Assembly: GCF_013343005.1 (NCBI RefSeq)
Contig: NZ_CP054491.1
Location: forward strand, 1,966,501 to 2,030,500
Source: Candidatus Reidiella endopervernicosa
Lineage (GTDB): Bacteria > Pseudomonadota > Gammaproteobacteria > GCF-013343005
Reading direction: 5' to 3'
DNA: 64,000 bases
Shown: one piece after another, positions 18,949 to 27,975 of the stretch
Layout of the letters: each line of letters begins with the position of its first letter
Numbering within the stretch: position 1 is the stretch's first letter
Notes under the pieces: generated by a model
Seen by the model: only the letters and a program-made list of their open reading frames with translations
Database searches by the model: none
Told to the model about the DNA's origin: nothing
Made by a program: the position numbers and the translations under genes

Positions 18949-19677
18949 TTACTTATCAAGCTCTGCTGCCCAAGGCGCCACGTGACGTTTCTCACGGGGG
19001 TTGTCGGCCTGATTACGTGTTGGGCTGAAGAAGACACCAGGCGCATGCAGTAATTTGCTGATCGGGAAGATGATCATCAATACGGCTACCAGCAGCAGGT
19101 GAATCAGTAGGAAACCATCGGTCGGTAGTGGCTTAAAGCTGAAGGTCATTAGACCAAGCATGAATGACTTCAGTGCGACAATGTCGGTGTGTGCCACATA
19201 CTTCATGCCGAGACCGCTAACACCAATCGCAACCAGTAGTGCCAGGATCAGGTGATCAGACGGGTTAGTGATATAACGGATACGTTCAACAAAGATGCGG
19301 CGCGCCCAGAGGCCGCCAAGGCCCGCGATCATCGCGAAGCCGGCATATTTACCGAATGGCTGTGCCAGTACGATCAGTTCCCACACGGGATCCTGGAAAT
19401 AACGTACGTGACGGACAAGAACCAGCGCTAAAGCGACATGGAACATCCAGCCAAAGACCCAGATCCAGCGATTAGATCGGAATAGGCTTTCAAATAGCAC
19501 GACCTCACGGGCCATGCGAACTACTACGCCACTTGTAGTGATTGGCGCAGGAGTTGTAGGAATTTTTAACGGAGCAGGTGTTGTAGCGTATTGGCGAATC
19601 TTATAGCCAATTCCAACTACAAACAGAACCGTTGCGGTATAAAACAGTAGGGCATAAAACCCTGTAAGGAACGACAT
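18949..19677 (-). CDS. dsrM: DsrM, cytochrome b membrane subunit
   Basis: This 242-residue NarI-like protein has about five membrane helices, and histidines in the helices (for example GWMFHVALALVLVRHVRY and FLLIHLLLVAVLM) can bind haem b. It anchors DsrK and links it to the quinone pool. It sits between dsrC and dsrK in the canonical order. The cytoplasmic tail is basic and proline-containing. Confidence 0.94.
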   Translation of the reverse strand: MSFLTGFYALLFYTATVLFVVGIGYKIRQYATTPAPLKIPTTPAPITTSGVVVRMAREVVLFESLFRSNRWIWVFGWMFHVALALVLVRHVRYFQDPVWELIVLAQPFGKYAGFAMIAGLGGLWARRIFVERIRYITNPSDHLILALLVAIGVSGLGMKYVAHTDIVALKSFMLGLMTFSFKPLPTDGFLLIHLLLVAVLMIIFPISKLLHAPGVFFSPTRNQADNPREKRHVAPWAAELDK

Positions 19678-19763
19678 GTTAATCGGACCTCCAGCTAAAC
19701 ATCACTGAAATAAAGTTAGTAAGAGAAGGGGAGGCGTGAGCCTCCCCTCAGGACAGCTAAAGC

Positions 19764-20096
19764 TTAGATACAACCAGTAGGCTTAGGCAGTCCAGCGATC
19801 TTACAAGCCTGCTTTGCAGGACCGTAAGGGAACAGCTCATAGAGGTACTTGCTGTTGCCCTTTTCCTTGCCAAGCTTCTTACCAATTGCCTTGGTCAGAA
19901 CGCGTACAGCAGGAGCGATCTGGAACTCGTTGTAGTACTCACGCAGGAAGTGAATAACTTCCCAGTGGCTCTCGGTCAGTTCCAGGTTTTCGGTCTTAGC
20001 CAGCTCAAGTGCAGCAGGCTCGGTCCACTCGGTCAGATCGACCAGGTAACCTTCTTCGTCGGTCTCAAGGCTCTTACCTTCAACGTCTAATGGCAT
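19764..20096 (-). CDS. dsrC: DsrC, sulfur carrier with two C-terminal cysteines
   Basis: The 110-residue protein ends in the flexible arm KQACKIAGLPKPTGCI. It has both redox-active cysteines, C98 and the penultimate C109, ten residues apart as in active DsrC. It receives sulfur from DsrEFH and presents it to DsrAB, and the resulting intramolecular linkage is handled by DsrMK. A ribosome-binding site, AAGGAGAG, precedes the ATG. A second copy at 26.2-26.6 kb lacks both cysteines. Confidence 0.97.
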   Translation of the reverse strand: MPLDVEGKSLETDEEGYLVDLTEWTEPAALELAKTENLELTESHWEVIHFLREYYNEFQIAPAVRVLTKAIGKKLGKEKGNSKYLYELFPYGPAKQACKIAGLPKPTGCI

Positions 20097-20140
20097 GATT
20101 TCTCTCCTTAACTTAAAAAAGTAATTGAACTAAATTTGGA

Positions 20141-20443
20141 TTAAAGCCAAGCAGAGACGTTGTCGCTTTCGGCGACAAGATCCACGAAACCGGCATAATC
20201 TACAAGCTTGATGCCATCCATTACCTTATCTTGCATTCCACGTGCTTTTACATCTTCCTCAAGCGCGTAGACGGTAATGTCACCCATAACACCCTTAACC
20301 TTTTCAGATACTGAGGTGTTGTTGGTGGCGGCGTATACTCCGTCCTCGATCAGCAGGATGCTGCTGCCGGCCTTAGCCATGCGAAGGCAGCTATCCAGGG
20401 CATTCTTTTCGAACGGTGATTTATTTACTGTGTGTAGCAACAT
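20141..20443 (-). CDS. dsrH: DsrH subunit of the DsrEFH sulfurtransferase
   Basis: This is a TusB/DsrH-family protein of 100 residues. It begins MLLHTVNKSPFEKNALDSCL, with the conserved cysteine at residue 19. DsrH is the third subunit of the alpha2beta2gamma2 DsrEFH complex that hands sulfur to DsrC. It is 12 bp downstream of dsrF and 44 bp upstream of dsrC. Confidence 0.93.
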   Translation of the reverse strand: MLLHTVNKSPFEKNALDSCLRMAKAGSSILLIEDGVYAATNNTSVSEKVKGVMGDITVYALEEDVKARGMQDKVMDGIKLVDYAGFVDLVAESDNVSAWL

Positions 20444-20455
20444 GTTGAACTCCCC

Positions 20456-20848
20456 TTAAAAGCTCAGGACTACGTCCTGCTCTTCCATAAGGTCGCGGAT
20501 CTCTTCAGCAGTCTTAACTTCAACTTCTACGACGAAGTCTTCTGCTGTGAGGCCGCGAGCCTCCAATGACTCTTTCTCAACGTAGAGTTGTTCTACGTCA
20601 TACATCTCAAGAGCGCGGTAGGTAGGAGAGAAGTTCTTCATCTCGATACCGGCAGTATCCTGACCCTTGGCAATCTGGTAGAGACCATCATCAGCGAAGA
20701 CCAGACTTACGTCCTGCTCAAATGCTGCTCCAATCAGTACAACTTCCAAGGATTCCAGGGCGTATACAGTTCCGTACGGAGCCTTGCGGTTCATGTACAG
20801 AAACTTTTTGACGGGGCCCCCGTCTTCCATCATTTCATCACTCATCAT
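20456..20848 (-). CDS. dsrF: DsrF subunit of the DsrEFH sulfurtransferase
   Basis: This TusC/DsrF-family protein of about 130 residues is recognised from KFLYMNRKAPYGTVYALESL and the adjacent VVLIGAAFEQDVSLVFADDG. There is no catalytic cysteine, as expected for DsrF. Two adjacent ATG codons make the start uncertain by one residue. It is 13 bp downstream of dsrE and 12 bp upstream of dsrH. Confidence 0.93.
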   Translation of the reverse strand: MMSDEMMEDGGPVKKFLYMNRKAPYGTVYALESLEVVLIGAAFEQDVSLVFADDGLYQIAKGQDTAGIEMKNFSPTYRALEMYDVEQLYVEKESLEARGLTAEDFVVEVEVKTAEEIRDLMEEQDVVLSF

Positions 20849-20861
20849 TCAACTCCGCTGA

Positions 20862-21254
20862 TTAGTCGCCAAATACAACCAGACGATCAGCCTGAATGCC
20901 TGCTTCAATAAGCTGGCCCAGACCTGAGATACGGAAACCGGGTGCGAGATTGTCTGCATCCTTACCGTTGCGCTTTGACTCATCGGCATCTGCGATACCG
21001 CGGCGCTGGGCCGCAGCAACACAGACGACGAGATCGACGCCATGCTTATCAGCAAGATCGCTCCAGCGGTTGACGATGTGACGGTCATCCTGAGGAGGAG
21101 TGGTCAGACGAGTCGCGTTGTTTACGCCATCGTGGTAGAAGAAGATACGAAAGATTTCGTGTCCCTTCTCCAATGCGGCGCTCGCAAACTTGAACGCACT
21201 ATCGGAAGCCTGATGGGTATATGGCCCCTCGTTAACCTGTATTGAGAACTTCAT
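20862..21254 (-). CDS. dsrE: DsrE, catalytic subunit of the DsrEFH sulfurtransferase
   Basis: This 130-residue TusD/DsrE-family protein has the persulfide-carrying cysteine at residue 78 (DLVVCVAAAQRRG), the same number as in Allochromatium DsrE. It passes sulfur to DsrC. DsrEFH is typical of sulfur oxidisers rather than sulfate reducers. It starts 32 bp after dsrB. Confidence 0.95.
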   Translation of the reverse strand: MKFSIQVNEGPYTHQASDSAFKFASAALEKGHEIFRIFFYHDGVNNATRLTTPPQDDRHIVNRWSDLADKHGVDLVVCVAAAQRRGIADADESKRNGKDADNLAPGFRISGLGQLIEAGIQADRLVVFGD

Positions 21255-21286
21255 GAAGGGTTAACTCCTAGTTACTTAACGGCCGC

Positions 21287-22357
21287 TTAGAAGCGGATGT
21301 GTGCCGAAGCGTTCAGGCTGGTGCGAGCACCACGCCAGTTATCGATGTGGTACTTGGTGAACGGCAGACCGGTCTTCTCAAAGAAACGAGACCAACCGAT
21401 GCGATCAACCCACTCACCAATACGCTCGTAGTCCTTAGCATCTTCTTTGTAAACAGAGAGGATGTTCTTAACAACTTCAGCAACCTCAGGCCAGCGAGGA
21501 GGGTTGTTAGGGATACCAGCAGCAACCAGCTTGTGGAAGGTCGGCTTGGTACGAGCGTTAGAGTTCTTACCACCAATCCAGATCGCAAACTTCGAGTGCT
21601 CAGGATCGTTGATCTGCATGGGAGGGCAGGGTGGGAAGCAGGCGCCACAGCAGACACACTTCTTCTCGTCGATCTCAAGTGAAGGCTTGCCATTAACCAG
21701 TGCAGGACGAATCGCAGCAACTGGACAGCGAGCAACAACCGTTGGACGCTCACAGACGTTAGCAACCAGATCATGGTTGATCTTAGGTGGCTTGGTGTGC
21801 TGAATGTTGATCGCGATATCACCCTGACCACCACAGTTGATCTGGCAGCAAGAGGTGGTCATACGAACACGGTTAGGCATCTCTTCCTTGGTGAACTCGT
21901 CGTAGAGCTCATCCATCAGGGCCTTAACAGCACCGGATGCATCGGTACCAGGGATGTCGCAGTGCAACCAACCCTGAGTGTGAGAGATCATTGATACAGA
22001 GTTACCGGTACCACCGACAGGGAAGCCCTCTTCGCCGAGCTTGTCGATCAGCGGCTGAACGCGTGACTCATCGGTGACCATGTACTCGATGTTTGAGCGG
22101 ATGGTGAAACGGACAAAGCCGTCTGCAAACTCATCTGCGATATCACAGAGCTTACGAATGGTGTAGAGATCCATCTGACGCTGGGTACCTGCGCGAACAG
22201 TCCAGATCTGGTCGCCACCGTTGGCAACGTGATGAAGAACGCCGGGACGAGGACGATCGTGATACTTCCAGTCGCCGAAGTTCTCCTTCATGGTTGGGTG
22301 CATGTAGGGGAACGGATCTGGTACTCCGCACTCATCAGGCATACGAGGTGCTGACAT
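21287..22357 (-). CDS. dsrB: Reverse-type dissimilatory sulfite reductase beta subunit
   Basis: DsrB (356 residues) forms the alpha2beta2 sirohaem enzyme with DsrA, oxidising reduced sulfur to sulfite in this type of organism. Visible are the cluster region SCCQINCGGQGD, a downstream cysteine in VARCPVAAIRPA, and the inserted ferredoxin motif CVCCGACFPPCPP. A TTG four codons upstream (22369) is in frame. The ATG at 22357 has a GGAGG box at correct spacing and gives MSAPRMPDE, so it was chosen. dsrA lies 88 bp upstream. Confidence 0.97.
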   Translation of the reverse strand: MSAPRMPDECGVPDPFPYMHPTMKENFGDWKYHDRPRPGVLHHVANGGDQIWTVRAGTQRQMDLYTIRKLCDIADEFADGFVRFTIRSNIEYMVTDESRVQPLIDKLGEEGFPVGGTGNSVSMISHTQGWLHCDIPGTDASGAVKALMDELYDEFTKEEMPNRVRMTTSCCQINCGGQGDIAINIQHTKPPKINHDLVANVCERPTVVARCPVAAIRPALVNGKPSLEIDEKKCVCCGACFPPCPPMQINDPEHSKFAIWIGGKNSNARTKPTFHKLVAAGIPNNPPRWPEVAEVVKNILSVYKEDAKDYERIGEWVDRIGWSRFFEKTGLPFTKYHIDNWRGARTSLNASAHIRF

Positions 22358-22445
22358 GTTAACCTCCAAAAAAACTATATTTATTTAGTCTTGCGGGGTA
22401 CGGCATGTTAGCCATACCCCGCTTATCATTTCAGGAACAGACCGA

Positions 22446-23690
22446 TTAACCGGCAGCCTTGCGCTCGTTCCACTTACCAGCTTCCTCATCCCAATCATCG
22501 GCACGGAAGTAGTTACTGGTACGGGTCTGGTTGACCATGTTTGGATCAACCTCGAGGCCAATGCCTTCAAGGAAATTGATCAGGCCAATACGCTCGATCA
22601 TCTCACCGGTACGCTCATGCTCGAGAGCATTCTCGGCGAAGAAGTCGATCATCTCGCCAGCCAGCTCTTCAAGGGCTTCGAAATCATCATCATCTTCAAG
22701 CTTCATGAAAGGAACGACTACGGTGCCCATCAGATCGCCGATCTTCAGAGTACGCTTACCACCAACGAGCAGGGTTACACCCTTGTCGTCGCCAGGGGAG
22801 AGTGCCTTGGTCATCACGTTGATGCAGTGCATGCAGCGTACGCAGTTGCTGTTATCAACAGCCAGGGTGTCGTCGTCATTCAGAGACAGGGCCTGAGTTG
22901 GGCAGCGGGTGATGACATTGTCGATAACATACTTACGACCCTTGTCAGCAACATATGCTTTGACCTCGTCCTGATCGACCTTCATGTCGTCGCGCCAGGT
23001 ACCGATGGTAGCGAGGTCAGCACGCTGGATAGAGTTCATGCAATCGTTTCCGCAACCGGAAACCTTGAACTTGAACTTGTAAGGCAGTGCAGGGCGATGC
23101 ATATCATCAAGGAATGCATTGACCAGCATGCGGTGAACCTTCTGCTCATTAACACAAGAGTGCTCACAACGAGCAGCACCAACACATGACATACCGGTAC
23201 GGACAGCAGGACCGGCGCCGCCGAGGTCGAAGCCCATTTCGTTCAGCTCATCAAAAGCAGGCTGTACGTTGTCGGTGGTGCAGCCCTGGAACATGATGTC
23301 ACCAGACTGGCCGTGGAAAGCGATAAGGCCTGAACCGTACTTTTCCCAGACATCACACATCTTACGCAGGGTGTTGGTGTCATAGTGCATGCCGGCAGGA
23401 GGCATGATACGCAGGGTGTGGAACTCAGCAGCTTCAGGGAACAGAGGCTCTTTGTTGTCATCGAGCAGTTCGGTGAAGCGAGGAATGATGCCGCCGCCGT
23501 AACCGATAACGCCGACGGTGCCGCCTTTCCAGTAGCCCTTACGGGTTTCGTATGAGGTTTCCAGCTGACCCAGCAGGTCGACCATCATATCGTTGTCGTT
23601 CGCAAGACGCTTGAGACCGGTTACAAAGCTAGGCCATGGGCCGCTTTCCAGCTGATCGAGCATCGGAGTGTCATGGAGGTTCTTACCCAT
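22446..23690 (-). CDS. dsrA: Reverse-type dissimilatory sulfite reductase alpha subunit
   Basis: DsrA (414 residues) is the catalytic alpha subunit. The sirohaem-[4Fe-4S] ligand pattern is Cx5C (CVGAARC) followed by Cx3C (CGNDC). The ferredoxin insertion carries CVRCMHC with CPTQ upstream. A GGAG ribosome-binding site precedes the ATG. It is the first gene of the dsr operon, with some 500 bp of non-coding sequence upstream that must contain the promoter. The gene is intact and free of the repeat elements found downstream in the window. Confidence 0.97.
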   Translation of the reverse strand: MGKNLHDTPMLDQLESGPWPSFVTGLKRLANDNDMMVDLLGQLETSYETRKGYWKGGTVGVIGYGGGIIPRFTELLDDNKEPLFPEAAEFHTLRIMPPAGMHYDTNTLRKMCDVWEKYGSGLIAFHGQSGDIMFQGCTTDNVQPAFDELNEMGFDLGGAGPAVRTGMSCVGAARCEHSCVNEQKVHRMLVNAFLDDMHRPALPYKFKFKVSGCGNDCMNSIQRADLATIGTWRDDMKVDQDEVKAYVADKGRKYVIDNVITRCPTQALSLNDDDTLAVDNSNCVRCMHCINVMTKALSPGDDKGVTLLVGGKRTLKIGDLMGTVVVPFMKLEDDDDFEALEELAGEMIDFFAENALEHERTGEMIERIGLINFLEGIGLEVDPNMVNQTRTSNYFRADDWDEEAGKWNERKAAG

Positions 23691-24206
23691 GTCGCTTTCT
23701 CCTTAAATTAATAGAATCTACAGTTGTTGGTTGCCGTTGTTATGCCACCCGGGATTAAACAGGTACTTCCCGTACAACTTCAGCACTAGACCTTTACGGT
23801 GGTGCATAGTGTAGTAGCACGCTACCCCTGAGTCACATCCCGCTGATGGGGTGGTTCAAGAGTTTTATACCTATCCCAAAGGGGATAGGTGCTTTGCCGT
23901 CCGATGGCAGGTGTGACAGCTCTTCATGAGGGTTAGCGAACTTATCACAGCACAAATGGTAATAGCTAGCTGCTGAGGTGAGGGATTGTAAAAAATAGTG
24001 TCCTATATAATAAGGTGTAATTATGGTTAGAATATTAATAAATACTTAACATTTAACTTTGCGCGCGCTATTATCCAACCAAAATAGTCGGACACTTATC
24101 CACCTCTATCGCAGGGGTAGTATGTCGGTGATATGCCGATTGCGGGTATCATGTGTCGATTGTTTGTCTATAAATTATTGCATTGATCAAATTGTGGAGT
24201 AGGGCG
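23691..24206 (-). promoter_or_regulatory. dsr upstream region with a perfect inverted repeat
   Basis: This 516-bp gap separates dsrA from a small plus-strand gene and holds no credible gene. A perfect 9-bp inverted repeat (ACCTATCCC and GGGATAGGT, spacer 4) lies at 23869-23890, about 180 bp upstream of the dsrA ATG. It could be an operator or an RNA hairpin in the leader. The segment 23990-24060 is AT-rich. No firm -35/-10 pair was assigned. Confidence 0.5.
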
Positions 24207-24386
24207 ATGTTATATCTGAGTGAAGTGATGATTCAGCATACTGAGCTGGAGTCCTTTGAGGCACTGCTTGAGGTGATCACGGCAAGGGCAAAAGGGGGGG
24301 AGCGCTTTTTTAAAATCGATGTGAAGCCGCCTTATAACGATACGCCTGAGAATTGGGAAGATAGGCTGGAAGCCGCATTTACCTGA
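24207..24386 (+). CDS. Small hypothetical protein
   Basis: This 59-residue soluble protein begins MLYLSEVMIQHTELESFEAL and ends EDRLEAAFT. It has an amphipathic helix-rich profile and no cysteines. A GGAG box 8 bp before the ATG at 24207 supports this start; a TTG at 24183 is less likely. No family was recognised. It is divergent from dsrA and lies ahead of a repeat element, so it may be a dsr-associated gene or an isolated small gene. Confidence 0.55.
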   Translation: MLYLSEVMIQHTELESFEALLEVITARAKGGERFFKIDVKPPYNDTPENWEDRLEAAFT

Positions 24387-24489
24387 TATAACAATGAGTA
24401 ATGATATTTAGTTAATGTGATATGTGATGTTGTAGTGTCAGAAATTACTAAGTGCTACGGTTGATTCTCAGCAAATAGTGCCCATCAAC

Positions 24490-24773
24490 CGCTGACCGCC
24501 ATGGATAGCGAAGCGAAGGCGGTTAGTCCGCGATAGTCGACGCCGTCTGCATATTCGTAGTTGAGAGCGCGAGCGGACGACGAAGAAGATGCAGCAGCGG
24601 CTTTATGTCGGCGTAGAGTCACTGAGGGAGTTGTGTAGAGCCGCGAAGAGGTGATTACGCAACGTACGCAGGACGGTCGGGGCGCCGTAGGCATAAATGG
24701 TCGCGTTAAGTTTTTGCTGTTTGCTTGGGCTTGGATGCCCAAAACAAACTTTCGCAAAAATAGCGACTCCCCG
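24490..24773 (+). mobile_element. CG-bounded hairpin element, copy 1 (intergenic)
   Basis: This copy is 284 bp including the CG at each end. A left hairpin starts two bases in (CTGACCGCC 24492-24500 with GGCGGTTAG 24518-24526, one G-T pair). A right hairpin has three nested stems: TTTTTGC 24711-24717 with GCAAAAA 24754-24760, GTTTG with CAAAC, and TTGGGC with GCCCAA. The copy ends TAGCGACTCCCCG. It lies between two plus-strand genes and breaks no recognised gene. It belongs to the GATAGCGAAGCG loop subtype. Confidence 0.9.
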
Positions 24774-24810
24774 GTGTCAAATATTTTGTGTTAGAGATGA
24801 GGGTGTCTGT

Positions 24811-25515
24811 ATGACCCAGTTGAATACTGAACTACCTGCCAATATGGATTGTGCCAGCGATGCTGAGCCCTCCGAAGAGTCTATTATTGTGCAGCTGACA
24901 GCATTAAAAGATCAGCTCTCTGATCTCACGACTGATGCCTCCGCTGTTAATCGTGCCAATCTCCTGCTCGATATAAGCAGTCTGCAGCATCAGGTCGGTG
25001 AGAGTGAAGAGGCGTGGCAAAATGGCCATGACGCTTTTAAGGTCTTCTTAGAAAATGAGCAGTGGGAACAGGCTGCTCAAGCCTGTGAGGTTATCTTCAA
25101 GGCTGAGATGGATGATGCATTACCCGCACTGGGTCAGGGCATTTGGCTTTCAGTGACCTACCCAATCGATCCTCAGGTGAGTGTTGCGATGCTCGAATAT
25201 GTCGTTGATGAGACGCCGCACGACTCAGATGGTGCAGCTGTAGCAGCAACAACAGCCTATTTTCTGGCTGATATGCGTAGTGAGGGTAAAAAGCGCGAGG
25301 ATCTAACCCTCTATGCGGGTAATTTGCTGGCGAATGTCGCAAGGCGCCATAGCAATATTGAAGGACAGGATGCTTTTGATCTTTGGATGGAGCGGCTTGA
25401 ACTCAAGGATCCTGATAAGTTCTTGATTCGATTGCGTAACGTGATTGATGTGCTGGTACAGGAAGATTGGTGGTTTGATCGTGAGGCGCTGCAGGAACAG
25501 CTTCCGGAGAGCTGA
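24811..25515 (+). CDS. Hypothetical protein linked to Cmx6-like and DsrC-like genes
   Basis: This acidic, helix-rich soluble protein of about 235 residues has tetratricopeptide-like helices (LLDISSLQHQVGESEEAWQN; WEQAAQACEVIFKAEM; ALGQGIWLSVTYPID). No catalytic motif or signal peptide is visible. A start at 24811 (MTQLNTELP) follows a weak GAGG box. A longer frame running into the repeat element upstream is an artefact of the element. Its stop is 2 bp before the next ATG, so it is in an operon with the Cas6/Cmx6-like and cysteine-less DsrC-like genes. No function can be given. Confidence 0.8.
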   Translation: MTQLNTELPANMDCASDAEPSEESIIVQLTALKDQLSDLTTDASAVNRANLLLDISSLQHQVGESEEAWQNGHDAFKVFLENEQWEQAAQACEVIFKAEMDDALPALGQGIWLSVTYPIDPQVSVAMLEYVVDETPHDSDGAAVAATTAYFLADMRSEGKKREDLTLYAGNLLANVARRHSNIEGQDAFDLWMERLELKDPDKFLIRLRNVIDVLVQEDWWFDREALQEQLPES

Positions 25516-25517
25516 TT

Positions 25518-26180
25518 ATGTTCTGGGAAGAGGATGAAGACGAAACTATAAAACGGCCGGAGGATATCGTCGATCTGGCTTTTTCGCTGGTGGCTACTCA
25601 GATTCCGGTTGAGCATGCCTATCTGCTCTCTCAGGCCGTTGAGCGCGTTTTGCCCTGGTTAACCGATGAGACTGGTTGTGGTCTGCATCAGATTCATGGT
25701 GCCGAGAGCGGTAATGGCTGGCAGCGTCCCGATGATGGCGGTGCGATGTATATCTCCAAGCGAACCAAGTTGGTGCTGCGTCTGCCGAATGAACGAGTTG
25801 AGGATGCAGGAGTCCTGACCGGTCAAAAACTCGATCTTGATGGTTATACACTGGAGGTGGGCAAGGCGAACGTGCGTCTGCTCAATCCTGTGAGTACAAT
25901 ATATGCCCGTTACATCATTACCGATGGTGATGAGAGCGAAGAGCAGTTCCTCGAGTTCGTCTCTGAGCAGTTGCAAGAGATAGGGATTCGCTGCAAGAAG
26001 ATGATGTGTGGCAGAACCCACACGATTAGGGTTCCTGGTCGTGAGCTGCAGGCTCGTAGTCTGATGCTGGCTGATATCAGCAAAGAGGACTCGCTGCAGT
26101 TACAGAAACTGGGGCTCGGTAGGGGACGCAACATCGGTTGTGGACTCTTTATTCCCCATAAGGGAATACAACGAATATAA
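25518..26180 (+). CDS. Orphan Cas6/Cmx6-like RAMP-fold protein
   Basis: This 220-residue protein resembles the type I-MYXAN Cas6 (Cmx6) family. Features recalled from the family are VEHAYLLSQAVERVLPWL near residue 35, GLHQIHGAESGNGWQRPDDG, the pair RTKLVLRLP, the segment RSLMLADISKEDSLQLQ, and the C-terminal glycine-rich loop GRNIGCGLFIPHKGI. Cas6 proteins cleave CRISPR RNA, but no CRISPR array or other cas gene is in the window. The gene is fused into an operon (2 bp and 50 bp gaps) with a hypothetical gene and a DsrC paralogue. A role in RNA processing or sulfur metabolism regulation is inference. Family assignment is from pattern memory. Confidence 0.75.
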   Translation: MFWEEDEDETIKRPEDIVDLAFSLVATQIPVEHAYLLSQAVERVLPWLTDETGCGLHQIHGAESGNGWQRPDDGGAMYISKRTKLVLRLPNERVEDAGVLTGQKLDLDGYTLEVGKANVRLLNPVSTIYARYIITDGDESEEQFLEFVSEQLQEIGIRCKKMMCGRTHTIRVPGRELQARSLMLADISKEDSLQLQKLGLGRGRNIGCGLFIPHKGIQRI

Positions 26181-26230
26181 ATTCAATCAGATTTGGATCG
26201 TGTTAAAACACAAAGCTAGGAGAAGATAGT

Positions 26231-26572
26231 ATGTCGTACGAAGTAAATGGCCAGACCATAGCTGCAAACGCTAATGGTTACATTGAGAATGTTGAAGACT
26301 GGAATGAAGATGTTGCCAAGGCTATCGCTGCGGCCGAAGGTGTTGAAATCAGCGCGCGTGGCTGGGATATCATCAACTACCTGCGTGACGAGTTCCTCAA
26401 CAACGGTGGCAACCAGCCTAATGAGCGCAACATGGTCAAGCACTTCAAGGGTGCGTGGGATGACTCAAGTATCAACGCCAAGAGCCTCTACGAGCACTTC
26501 CCTAAGGGACCTGCCAAGCAGGCTGGCAAGATTGCTGGTACCCCTGAGACCAAGCGTAAGGGCGGCTACTAA
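26231..26572 (+). CDS. DsrC/TusE-family paralogue without the redox cysteines (RspA-like)
   Basis: This 113-residue DsrC-fold protein has the helix pattern of DsrC (EDWNEDVAKAIAAAEG; ARGWDIINYLRDEF; MVKHFKGAW; KSLYEHFPKGPAKQAGKIAG). The C-terminal arm reads KQAGKIAGTPETKRKGGY: the upstream cysteine is glycine and the penultimate cysteine is absent. Cysteine-less members have been grouped as RspA, presumed regulatory. It cannot carry sulfur on the arm. An AGGAGA box precedes the ATG. It is the last gene of the operon and is followed by a strong terminator. Confidence 0.88.
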   Translation: MSYEVNGQTIAANANGYIENVEDWNEDVAKAIAAAEGVEISARGWDIINYLRDEFLNNGGNQPNERNMVKHFKGAWDDSSINAKSLYEHFPKGPAKQAGKIAGTPETKRKGGY

Positions 26573-26590
26573 GCCTTACGATGGCTGATA

Positions 26591-26628
26591 AAACCGGCGC
26601 CTCGCTAACACGAGGCGCCGGTTTTTTT
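26591..26628 (+). terminator. Strong terminator after the RspA-like gene
   Basis: A perfect 14-bp stem (AAACCGGCGCCTCG with CGAGGCGCCGGTTT, 6-base loop) is followed by a T-run on the plus strand. The minus-strand side also has TTTT, so it can serve the convergent broken gene too. Confidence 0.92.
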
Positions 26629-27975
26629 ATGTCTCGAGTTTGGCTAGATTGATCATCGCTTCAAGACGATCTATCCGCTCGTACTCGCTGCTGTTGTTAT
26701 AGATGTTGACCATCTCATTGGCTATTGAAACCCAGTGTTCGAGGCCACGATCAATACAGGTTTTTACTGGGGTAAGAGAGCCATTGTCACTGCTGCACCA
26801 CTGTTTATATACATCGAGTAGGGCGGGGAAAATTTCTCGACGAATACCACTGAAATTGGCCATATAGAAATGAATAGAAGGAGTGTTCTGCGTTGCGATT
26901 AATTGTGGCAGGGTGGAGATAGCGTCAGCAATATGGTCACGAATAGCGCGTGCATAGAGTTCACTCTTTGTGCCAGCAATTGACATCACCATCTCGTTCC
27001 ACAATGGATTGAGTCGCTCTCCGCACTGATACTCCCCGATTTCATGCAGAACAACGGCCTCAATCTCGTTGTTGGTCATCTCTTCAAGGATCTCTGCAGG
27101 ACTATCTTTAAAGCTATAGCTGCTCAGGGCTCGCCCCATGCTGTTTTCGTACTCCTTCCAACCCCCGCTGACCGCCATGGAGAGCGAAGTGAGGGCGGTT
27201 AGTCCCCGATAGTCGACGCCGTCTGCCTATTCGTAGTTGAGAGCGCGAGCGGACGACGAAGAAGATGCAGCAGCGGCTTTATGTCGGCGTAGAGTCACTG
27301 AGGGAGTTGTGTAGAGCCGCGAAGAGGTGATTACGCAGCGTACGCAGGACGGTCGGGGCGCCGTAGGCATAAACGGTCGCGTTAAGTATTTGCCGCTTGC
27401 TTGGGCTTGGATGCCCAAAACAAGCTTCCGCAAAAATAGCGACTCCCGGACTCTTCAATACGCTCCCAAAGCATGCGTTGCAGCGATTCACGTCGTACGA
27501 TAATGGTTTTGCCTTGGGTCATGGCGGGGGGTGCGACAATATCTCGTGCCAGCTCTCGGCCAGTAATAACAATATTCATTGCCTGATGTTGTTGCTGGGA
27601 CTCCAGTTCAGCAACAACAAAGAGTGGTTTGGCAAAGCGCCCATATCCGCCGCTATAGACGTACCCGTGTGGAAAAAGTTTGTTGTTGAGCATGTCGCTC
27701 TCAAAGGGAGAGAACAGTTGTGATGCGAAGCTGAGATCGGAAAAGGCGTCATTTTCAACTCGATCCCAGAGCGCCTCTCGCTCTGTTATCCAGCCACCCA
27801 ATGCCTCATGAGCAAGCTTCTCTTCATAACCATGCCCCTGTTCCCAGCGATAGAGCTCTCGCATTTTGAGCAGGTAGATGCAGAGGGTATAGTTCTGAGC
27901 AAAACGAGCATCCGAGATGTGACAATTTTGCTGTACGGTTTCTATGAGGCTGTCGATTTCGCTGCTCACGGTCAC
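26627..27975 (-). pseudogene. Sfum_1244/DsrS-like protein gene, split by element copy 2
   Basis: The N-terminal part (27975 to about 27449) encodes ISDARFAQNYTLCIYLLKMRE, RWEQGHGYEEKLAHEALGGW and RELARDIVAPPAMTQGKTI. The C-terminal part (27165-27627 side, 27165 down to 26627) begins after the element with GWKEYENSM and includes EAVVLHEIGEYQCGERL. The pattern resembles the Sfum_1244 family. Removing the element and one CG restores frame (E-E-S-G-G-W-K-E-Y) and gives about 355 residues, close to the size reported for DsrS of Allochromatium. DsrS identity is possible but not proven. As it stands translation enters the element and stops. No other lesion is seen, so the insertion looks recent. Confidence 0.75.
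27166..27448 (+). mobile_element. CG-bounded hairpin element, copy 2 (inside Sfum_1244-like gene)
   Basis: This 283-bp copy has the GAGAGCGAAGTG loop subtype. Its right hairpin carries the compensated variant GCTTG with CAAGC in place of GTTTG with CAAAC. It is antisense to its host gene. One G seems lost at the right boundary (CTCCCG rather than CTCCCCG). Confidence 0.9.

Follow-up and report, generated by a model that had tools for sequence, protein, structure and literature searches.

A Cas6-family gene outside CRISPR, conserved beside the dsr genes of sulfur-oxidising Gammaproteobacteria

We analysed a 64,000-nucleotide stretch of the genome of Candidatus Reidiella endopervernicosa (the window), in which a cas6-like gene, cmx6, lies close to the genes for sulfur oxidation (Table 1). 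A sequence-only reading of the window had described a helical gene (hlx), the cas6-like gene and a dsrC-like gene in tight succession, and the three were located as described, with gaps of 2 bp between hlx and cmx6 and 50 bp between cmx6 and the dsrC-like gene. The strong terminator that it had placed after the dsrC-like gene was also recovered, as was the proximity to the dsr operon: dsrA starts at 23690, and the three genes lie 1.1 kb off on the opposite strand. The operon is of the oxidative kind, with dsrEFH and dsrL present. The description of the three genes as a self-contained triplet could not be upheld, since they are part of a module of four to six genes that includes s63, and to which relatives add a tauD-like gene and s67.

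Table 1. Features of the cmx6 locus (positions in the window)
Feature	Position	Strand	Basis or remark
Hairpin between dsrC and dsrM	19726..19749	-	candidate RNA target only
Hairpin between dsrA and dsrB	22393..22422	-	candidate RNA target only
dsrA, first gene of the oxidative dsr operon dsrABEFHCMKLJOP, divergent from the module	22446..23690	-	TIGR02064 557 bits, ORFs
dsrA promoter element: CTATCCC-N4-GGGATAG, second site CACCCCATCAG..GGGATGT, TAnAnT -10-like box	23800..23890	-	
Sigma-70-like promoter TTAACA-17-TATTAT upstream of s63 (tentative)	24046..24074	+	consensus scan, not above chance
s63, conserved protein of about 60 aa, core partner of cmx6	24207..24386	+	alignment
284-bp dispersed repeat between s63 and hlx, lineage-specific, not part of the module	24490..24773	+	8 window copies aligned
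hlx, all-helical TPR/alpha-solenoid-like protein, variable partner	24811..25515	+	AlphaFold pLDDT 90.4, weak TPR-like Foldseek matches
cmx6, domesticated Cas6-family protein	25518..26180	+	TIGR02807 and PF09559, Foldseek 8fcj TM 0.79
Cys-less DsrC paralogue (RspA type), C-terminus KRKGGY	26231..26572	+	PF04358
Intrinsic terminator, 15-bp stem, 6-nt loop, T tail	26590..26625	+	

The Cmx6 assignment of the earlier reading was checked by profile search, in which the cmx6 product scored 150.9 bits against TIGR02807 (Cas6/Cmx6; curated cut-off 98.85 bits) and 212 bits against PF09559 (cut-off 26.7 bits). The AlphaFold model of the protein (pLDDT 86) returned the Cas6 of type I-B CAST (PDB 8fcj) as its top Foldseek match, with E 3.5e-17, followed by other Cas6 and Cse3 structures, and an HMM match to the same type I-B CAST Cas6 gave E 2e-26. 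The gene product is a true Cas6/Cmx6 homologue, with the double-ferredoxin fold of Cas6 in its predicted structure. Residue conservation was counted over 139 dereplicated dsr-type Cas6 sequences. The C-terminal Gly-rich RNA loop is retained, G199, G201, G207 and G209 being conserved in at least 99%, and these glycines, along with R88 and R131, are common to the dsr-type and CRISPR-type proteins. Confined to the dsr type are W3, G67-W68, R70, R82 and K161, all invariant or near-invariant, and the highly conserved R180 and K215; W68 to P71 fall inside an insertion (NGW-R) that is absent from CRISPR Cmx6. The candidate catalytic histidines are H33 (99% conserved) and H57 (94%), the latter position being occupied by Q, N, S or A in cyanobacterial CRISPR Cmx6. 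The stretch around H57, LHxIxG, resembles LHEVKG, the surroundings of the catalytic His46 in P. furiosus Cas6 (sequence verified against 3pkm); a profile alignment to P. furiosus Cas6 gave no support for a match between H57 and His46. In a phylogenetic tree, the dsr-type proteins were separated at 100/99 support from six plasmid Cmx6, all of which adjoin cas3 except that of Gloeobacter morelensis pGMOR1 (L095). Judged by their sequences, the dsr-linked Cas6 proteins form one group apart from CRISPR Cmx6. In the fetched stretch of pGMOR1 there is no cas3, and the genes after its Cmx6 encode a PAPS-reductase-family protein and a cupin; this is possibly another Cas6 outside CRISPR beside a sulfur-type enzyme.

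The third gene had been read as a cysteine-less DsrC, and its product indeed scored 106.8 bits against PF04358, within the DsrC/TusE superfamily, and contains no cysteine at all, so that the C-terminal cysteine arm of DsrC is missing. Paralogues of this Cys-less DsrC/TusE type go by the name RspA. The RKGGY end is near-invariant in the module paralogues, compared with the GCV or GCI at the end of DsrC, and 63 of 64 DsrC have a cysteine within the last 15 residues. The gene, rspA, lies downstream of cmx6 in 93 of 122 dereplicated loci. Six DsrC-family proteins are encoded in the window's own genome.

The ancestral order of the module, as reconstructed from the compared loci, is dsrA divergent from tauD-like, s63, (hlx, TPR-like), cmx6, Cys-less DsrC (rspA) and (s67), of which s63 and cmx6 make the most constant pair. 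Near the window module, neither the tauD-like gene nor s67 is present, which we read as loss of both from the ancestral unit. The s63 protein has no Pfam or NCBIfam family match; its gene was found upstream of cmx6 in 109 of 124 dereplicated loci, and 104 of the 105 genomes with s63 have cmx6, even where both lie away from dsr. The sole exception, G122, stops at a contig border right there. Where cmx6 is away from dsr, in Beggiatoa-like genera and Thiothrix, s63 has mostly moved along with it. Homologues of hlx occur upstream of cmx6 in 48 of 119 dereplicated loci; s67, a gene of about 67 aa, is present in 59 of 122. The two are nearly mutually exclusive (hlx only, 40 loci; s67 only, 47; both, 3; neither, 13).

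The dispersed repeat inserted between s63 and hlx has the sequence CGCTGACCGCC...GCGACTCCCCG and a length of about 284 bp. Seven more copies lie in the window, one at 27175-27455 and the others from 31829, 32943, 40660, 45942, 49439 and 52411, with 97-99% identity among the best copies. A 29-nt core of the repeat has 338 matches in the 3.45-Mb genome (177 on the plus and 161 on the minus strand). Of 19 relatives sampled, 18 lack the repeat and one matches half of it, once, at 81%. Its RNA fold has a z of -2.2. At 26627-27975, a repeat copy splits the N-terminal from the C-terminal half of a Sfum_1244/DUF6866 gene, which was probably inactivated by it.

The sequence-only reading regarded cmx6 as a cas6 gene without CRISPR, and searches for Cas1 and Cas3 turned up no CRISPR-Cas locus elsewhere in the genome. 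The complete, single-contig 3.45-Mb sequence gave no Cas1 match, and its Cas3-core matches all fell below the cut-off, at the level of generic helicases. We surveyed 369 gammaproteobacterial genomes, in which cmx6 showed no association with Cas1: Cas1 was present in 50 of 117 cmx6 genomes versus 86 of 252 others (p=0.13), and absent from the other 67 of the 117. The neighbours of cmx6 in the window are dsr genes and module genes. Judged by cas genes and neighbours, cmx6 does not belong to type I-MYXAN CRISPR-Cas, and its membership in a CRISPR system was rejected. The helical gene was tried as Cas11/Cse2 and discarded, as it scored 16.5 bits against PF09485 (cut-off 24.6 bits), only one of 16 homologues gave a match, and its fold is TPR-like.

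The survey upheld the proposed tie to sulfur metabolism. While cmx6 was found in 117 genomes, dsrA was found in 118, a count that takes in partial matches below the model cut-off; both were present in 110, cmx6 only in 7, dsrA only in 8 and neither in 244, which gives an odds ratio of 479 (Fisher p about 1e-74, a significance inflated by relatedness). The distribution of cmx6 covers 57 families, and all but one of the 117 genomes have a single match, the exception (G263) having two adjacent pieces of one gene. Most exceptions to co-occurrence stop at contig borders where the partner would be expected (L071, L072, L074, L076, L078-L082), and G317, scored as lacking dsrA, has a dsrA stretch adjoining the module (L077). 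Linkage is conserved in relatives: in the 72 tabulated same-contig cases, cmx6 and dsrA are always divergent, and of the 96 dereplicated loci whose upstream sequence was long enough, 79 have a divergent dsrA nearby and none has one on the same strand. Loci with cmx6 were recovered from Sedimenticola, Thiothrix, Marithrix, Parabeggiatoa, Thioploca, Thiomargarita, Cocleimonas, Thiohalophilus and Thioglobus MED-G25; several Thiotrichaceae have cmx6 without dsr inside the fetched stretch. In G108 and G324, cmx6, s63-hlx and dsr sit at three separate places and all are retained, which argues for a functional tie and against mere hitch-hiking. A phylum-wide draw gave the window's genome as the only cmx6 match, and since all the genomes listed were from the same class, it says little on other classes.

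The family of G206 provided a contrast, as cmx6 is absent from 17 of its 18 genomes and 11 of these 17 have dsrA over the cut-off. In this cmx6-less clade, dsrA and dsrB overlap by 4 nt, compared with a gap of about 85 nt otherwise. The contrast comes from one clade and is suggestive only, but the presence of dsr without cmx6 does show that the module is an accessory, not needed for the pathway or its core chemistry. Taken together, the results show that cmx6 is a Cas6 lineage that has gone from CRISPR and become a fixed accessory of reverse dsr sulfur oxidation in Gammaproteobacteria. In most of the sulfur-oxidising Gammaproteobacteria examined, it has joined a conserved gene cluster next to the dsr genes.

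We considered two hairpins in the dsr operon as candidate RNA targets. The dsrA-dsrB hairpin scored at least 20 in 50 of 94 loci versus 4 in shuffled sequence, and the dsrC-dsrM hairpin did so in 58 of 68 loci versus 1. Both are absent from reduced genomes that retain cmx6 (L067, L069), and the dsrC-dsrM hairpin is retained in at least one cmx6-less genome (L197). Owing to this poor tracking of cmx6, the hairpins were set aside as the Cas6 target and remain a lead. Of 108 dsrA upstream regions, 83 carry a conserved 86-nt element with two operator-like sites; its architecture in the window also reads CTATCCC-N4-GGGATAG, CACCCCAT..GGGT and a CTAGACT-like -10. Because of its invariant TAnAnT box and its operator-like sites, the element reads as a promoter, and it survives, diverged, in the cmx6-less clade; it was therefore rejected as an RNA target, and its regulator is probably not the cmx6 module. 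Rfam gave zero matches in window positions 19500-27200. The earlier suggestion of an RNA-based or regulatory device for sulfur metabolism was thus borne out for sulfur, but not for its RNA-based or regulatory part, as no RNA substrate was identified and the hairpins track cmx6 poorly.

The position of a Cas6 beside dsr points to an unrecognised device for sulfur metabolism that is probably RNA-based. We favour, with close to even confidence, a domesticated Cas6 that controls sulfur oxidation post-transcriptionally by binding RNA and perhaps cleaving it, with a DsrC mimic as sensor; we judged this most likely because the RNA-facing residues common with CRISPR Cas6 have been kept. The protein would still bind structured RNA through the Gly-rich loop and the conserved Arg and Lys residues, probably with s63, and it may cleave the RNA and stay on the product, as Cas6 does with crRNA. 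Such binding or cleavage would set the stability or translation of sulfur-oxidation transcripts. The Cys-less DsrC cannot carry sulfur on its C-terminal arm; it may instead mimic DsrC, binding the partners of DsrC and relaying their state to the RNA-binding component, and the TPR-like hlx protein may serve as a scaffold. The fuller proposal, that a CRISPR-derived RNA processor, an obligate s63 and a Cys-less DsrC sensor make up a post-transcriptional sulfur-oxidation switch in most of the dsr-bearing Gammaproteobacteria examined, is put forward more tentatively.

The Cas6 fold could also have been reused at the protein level, as a scaffold or assembly factor without RNA. Together with the products of s63 and hlx and the Cys-less DsrC, it would then mature or gate the rDsrAB-DsrC-DsrEFH machinery. 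The DsrC mimic and the TPR-like partner do resemble components that make protein-protein contacts, the NGW-R insertion, specific to the clade, could form a new interface with another protein, and neither the hairpins nor the Rfam search yielded an RNA target. We nevertheless regard this role as somewhat unlikely, as the dsr-type proteins have, with hardly an exception, conserved the Gly-rich RNA loop and the Arg positions found in CRISPR Cas6. A role in RNA modification is improbable. Here, the Cas6-like protein would present tRNA or another RNA to the TauD-like 2OG-Fe(II) oxygenase, and the TusE/DsrC-like protein would be the adaptor that couples translation to sulfur status. RspA belongs to the family of TusE, which acts in tRNA thiolation, and the tauD-like gene is present in 83 of 105 dereplicated loci, its product scoring 82.8 bits against PF02668. 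However, the TauD-like protein finds its best NCBIfam matches among small-molecule hydroxylases, RspA is without the sulfur-carrying cysteine, and the gene is absent from the window and from the Sedimenticola loci L175 and L176, where the remaining module is retained. Far less probable is an orphan Cas6 that serves CRISPR arrays in trans, or one left behind by a CRISPR locus that has since been lost. The NCBI equivalog model does bear the name type I-MYXAN Cas6/Cmx6, but against this stand the lack of Cas1, and of Cas3 above cut-off, in the window's genome, the 67 of 117 cmx6 genomes without Cas1, the one match per genome in 116 of 117, nearly always beside or co-occurring with dsr, and the single dsr-type group apart from CRISPR Cmx6. 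A chance or hitch-hiking neighbourhood without functional link is scarcely credible, for although the sampled genomes are all Gammaproteobacteria of common ancestry, the order is retained across 57 families at 40-50% protein identity, co-occurrence is near-perfect and the parts are retained even when dispersed (G108, G324).

An RNA-based role for cmx6 would mean that a Cas6 has been domesticated to serve host metabolism, and would make control of the dsr genes directly testable. The module also offers a testable role for Cys-less DsrC paralogues. We know of no system composed of Cas6, s63, a Cys-less DsrC and a TauD-like or TPR-like partner at dsr, and our search of the open-access literature gave no match to this composition, no paper on a link between Cas6 and dsr, and no earlier report of a Cas6-like linkage and RKGGY end in a DsrC paralogue. 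The nearest relatives by family are the type I-MYXAN Cas6/Cmx6 proteins (TIGR02807; Gloeothece pP742402, Synechocystis 6714 pSYLB), which have the same fold and C-terminal Gly-rich loop at 22-30% identity. Their neighbours are cas3, cmx8 and cas8, whereas those of the dsr-type Cas6 are s63, RspA and dsr; the dsr type has in addition the NGW-R loop and the N-terminal W3, and no CRISPR context was found for it. The closest solved structure, the type I-B CAST Cas6 (8fcj), is part of a Cascade complex in a Tn7-like transposon and, unlike cmx6, has no link to dsr. The window DsrC paralogue resembles RspA-type DsrC/TusE paralogues in belonging to PF04358 and in having no C-terminal cysteine, and differs from them by its linkage to a Cas6-like gene and its near-invariant RKGGY end. 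Because the NCBI model names the dsr-type proteins CRISPR Cas6, a defence label obscures what is a conserved component of a major biogeochemical pathway.
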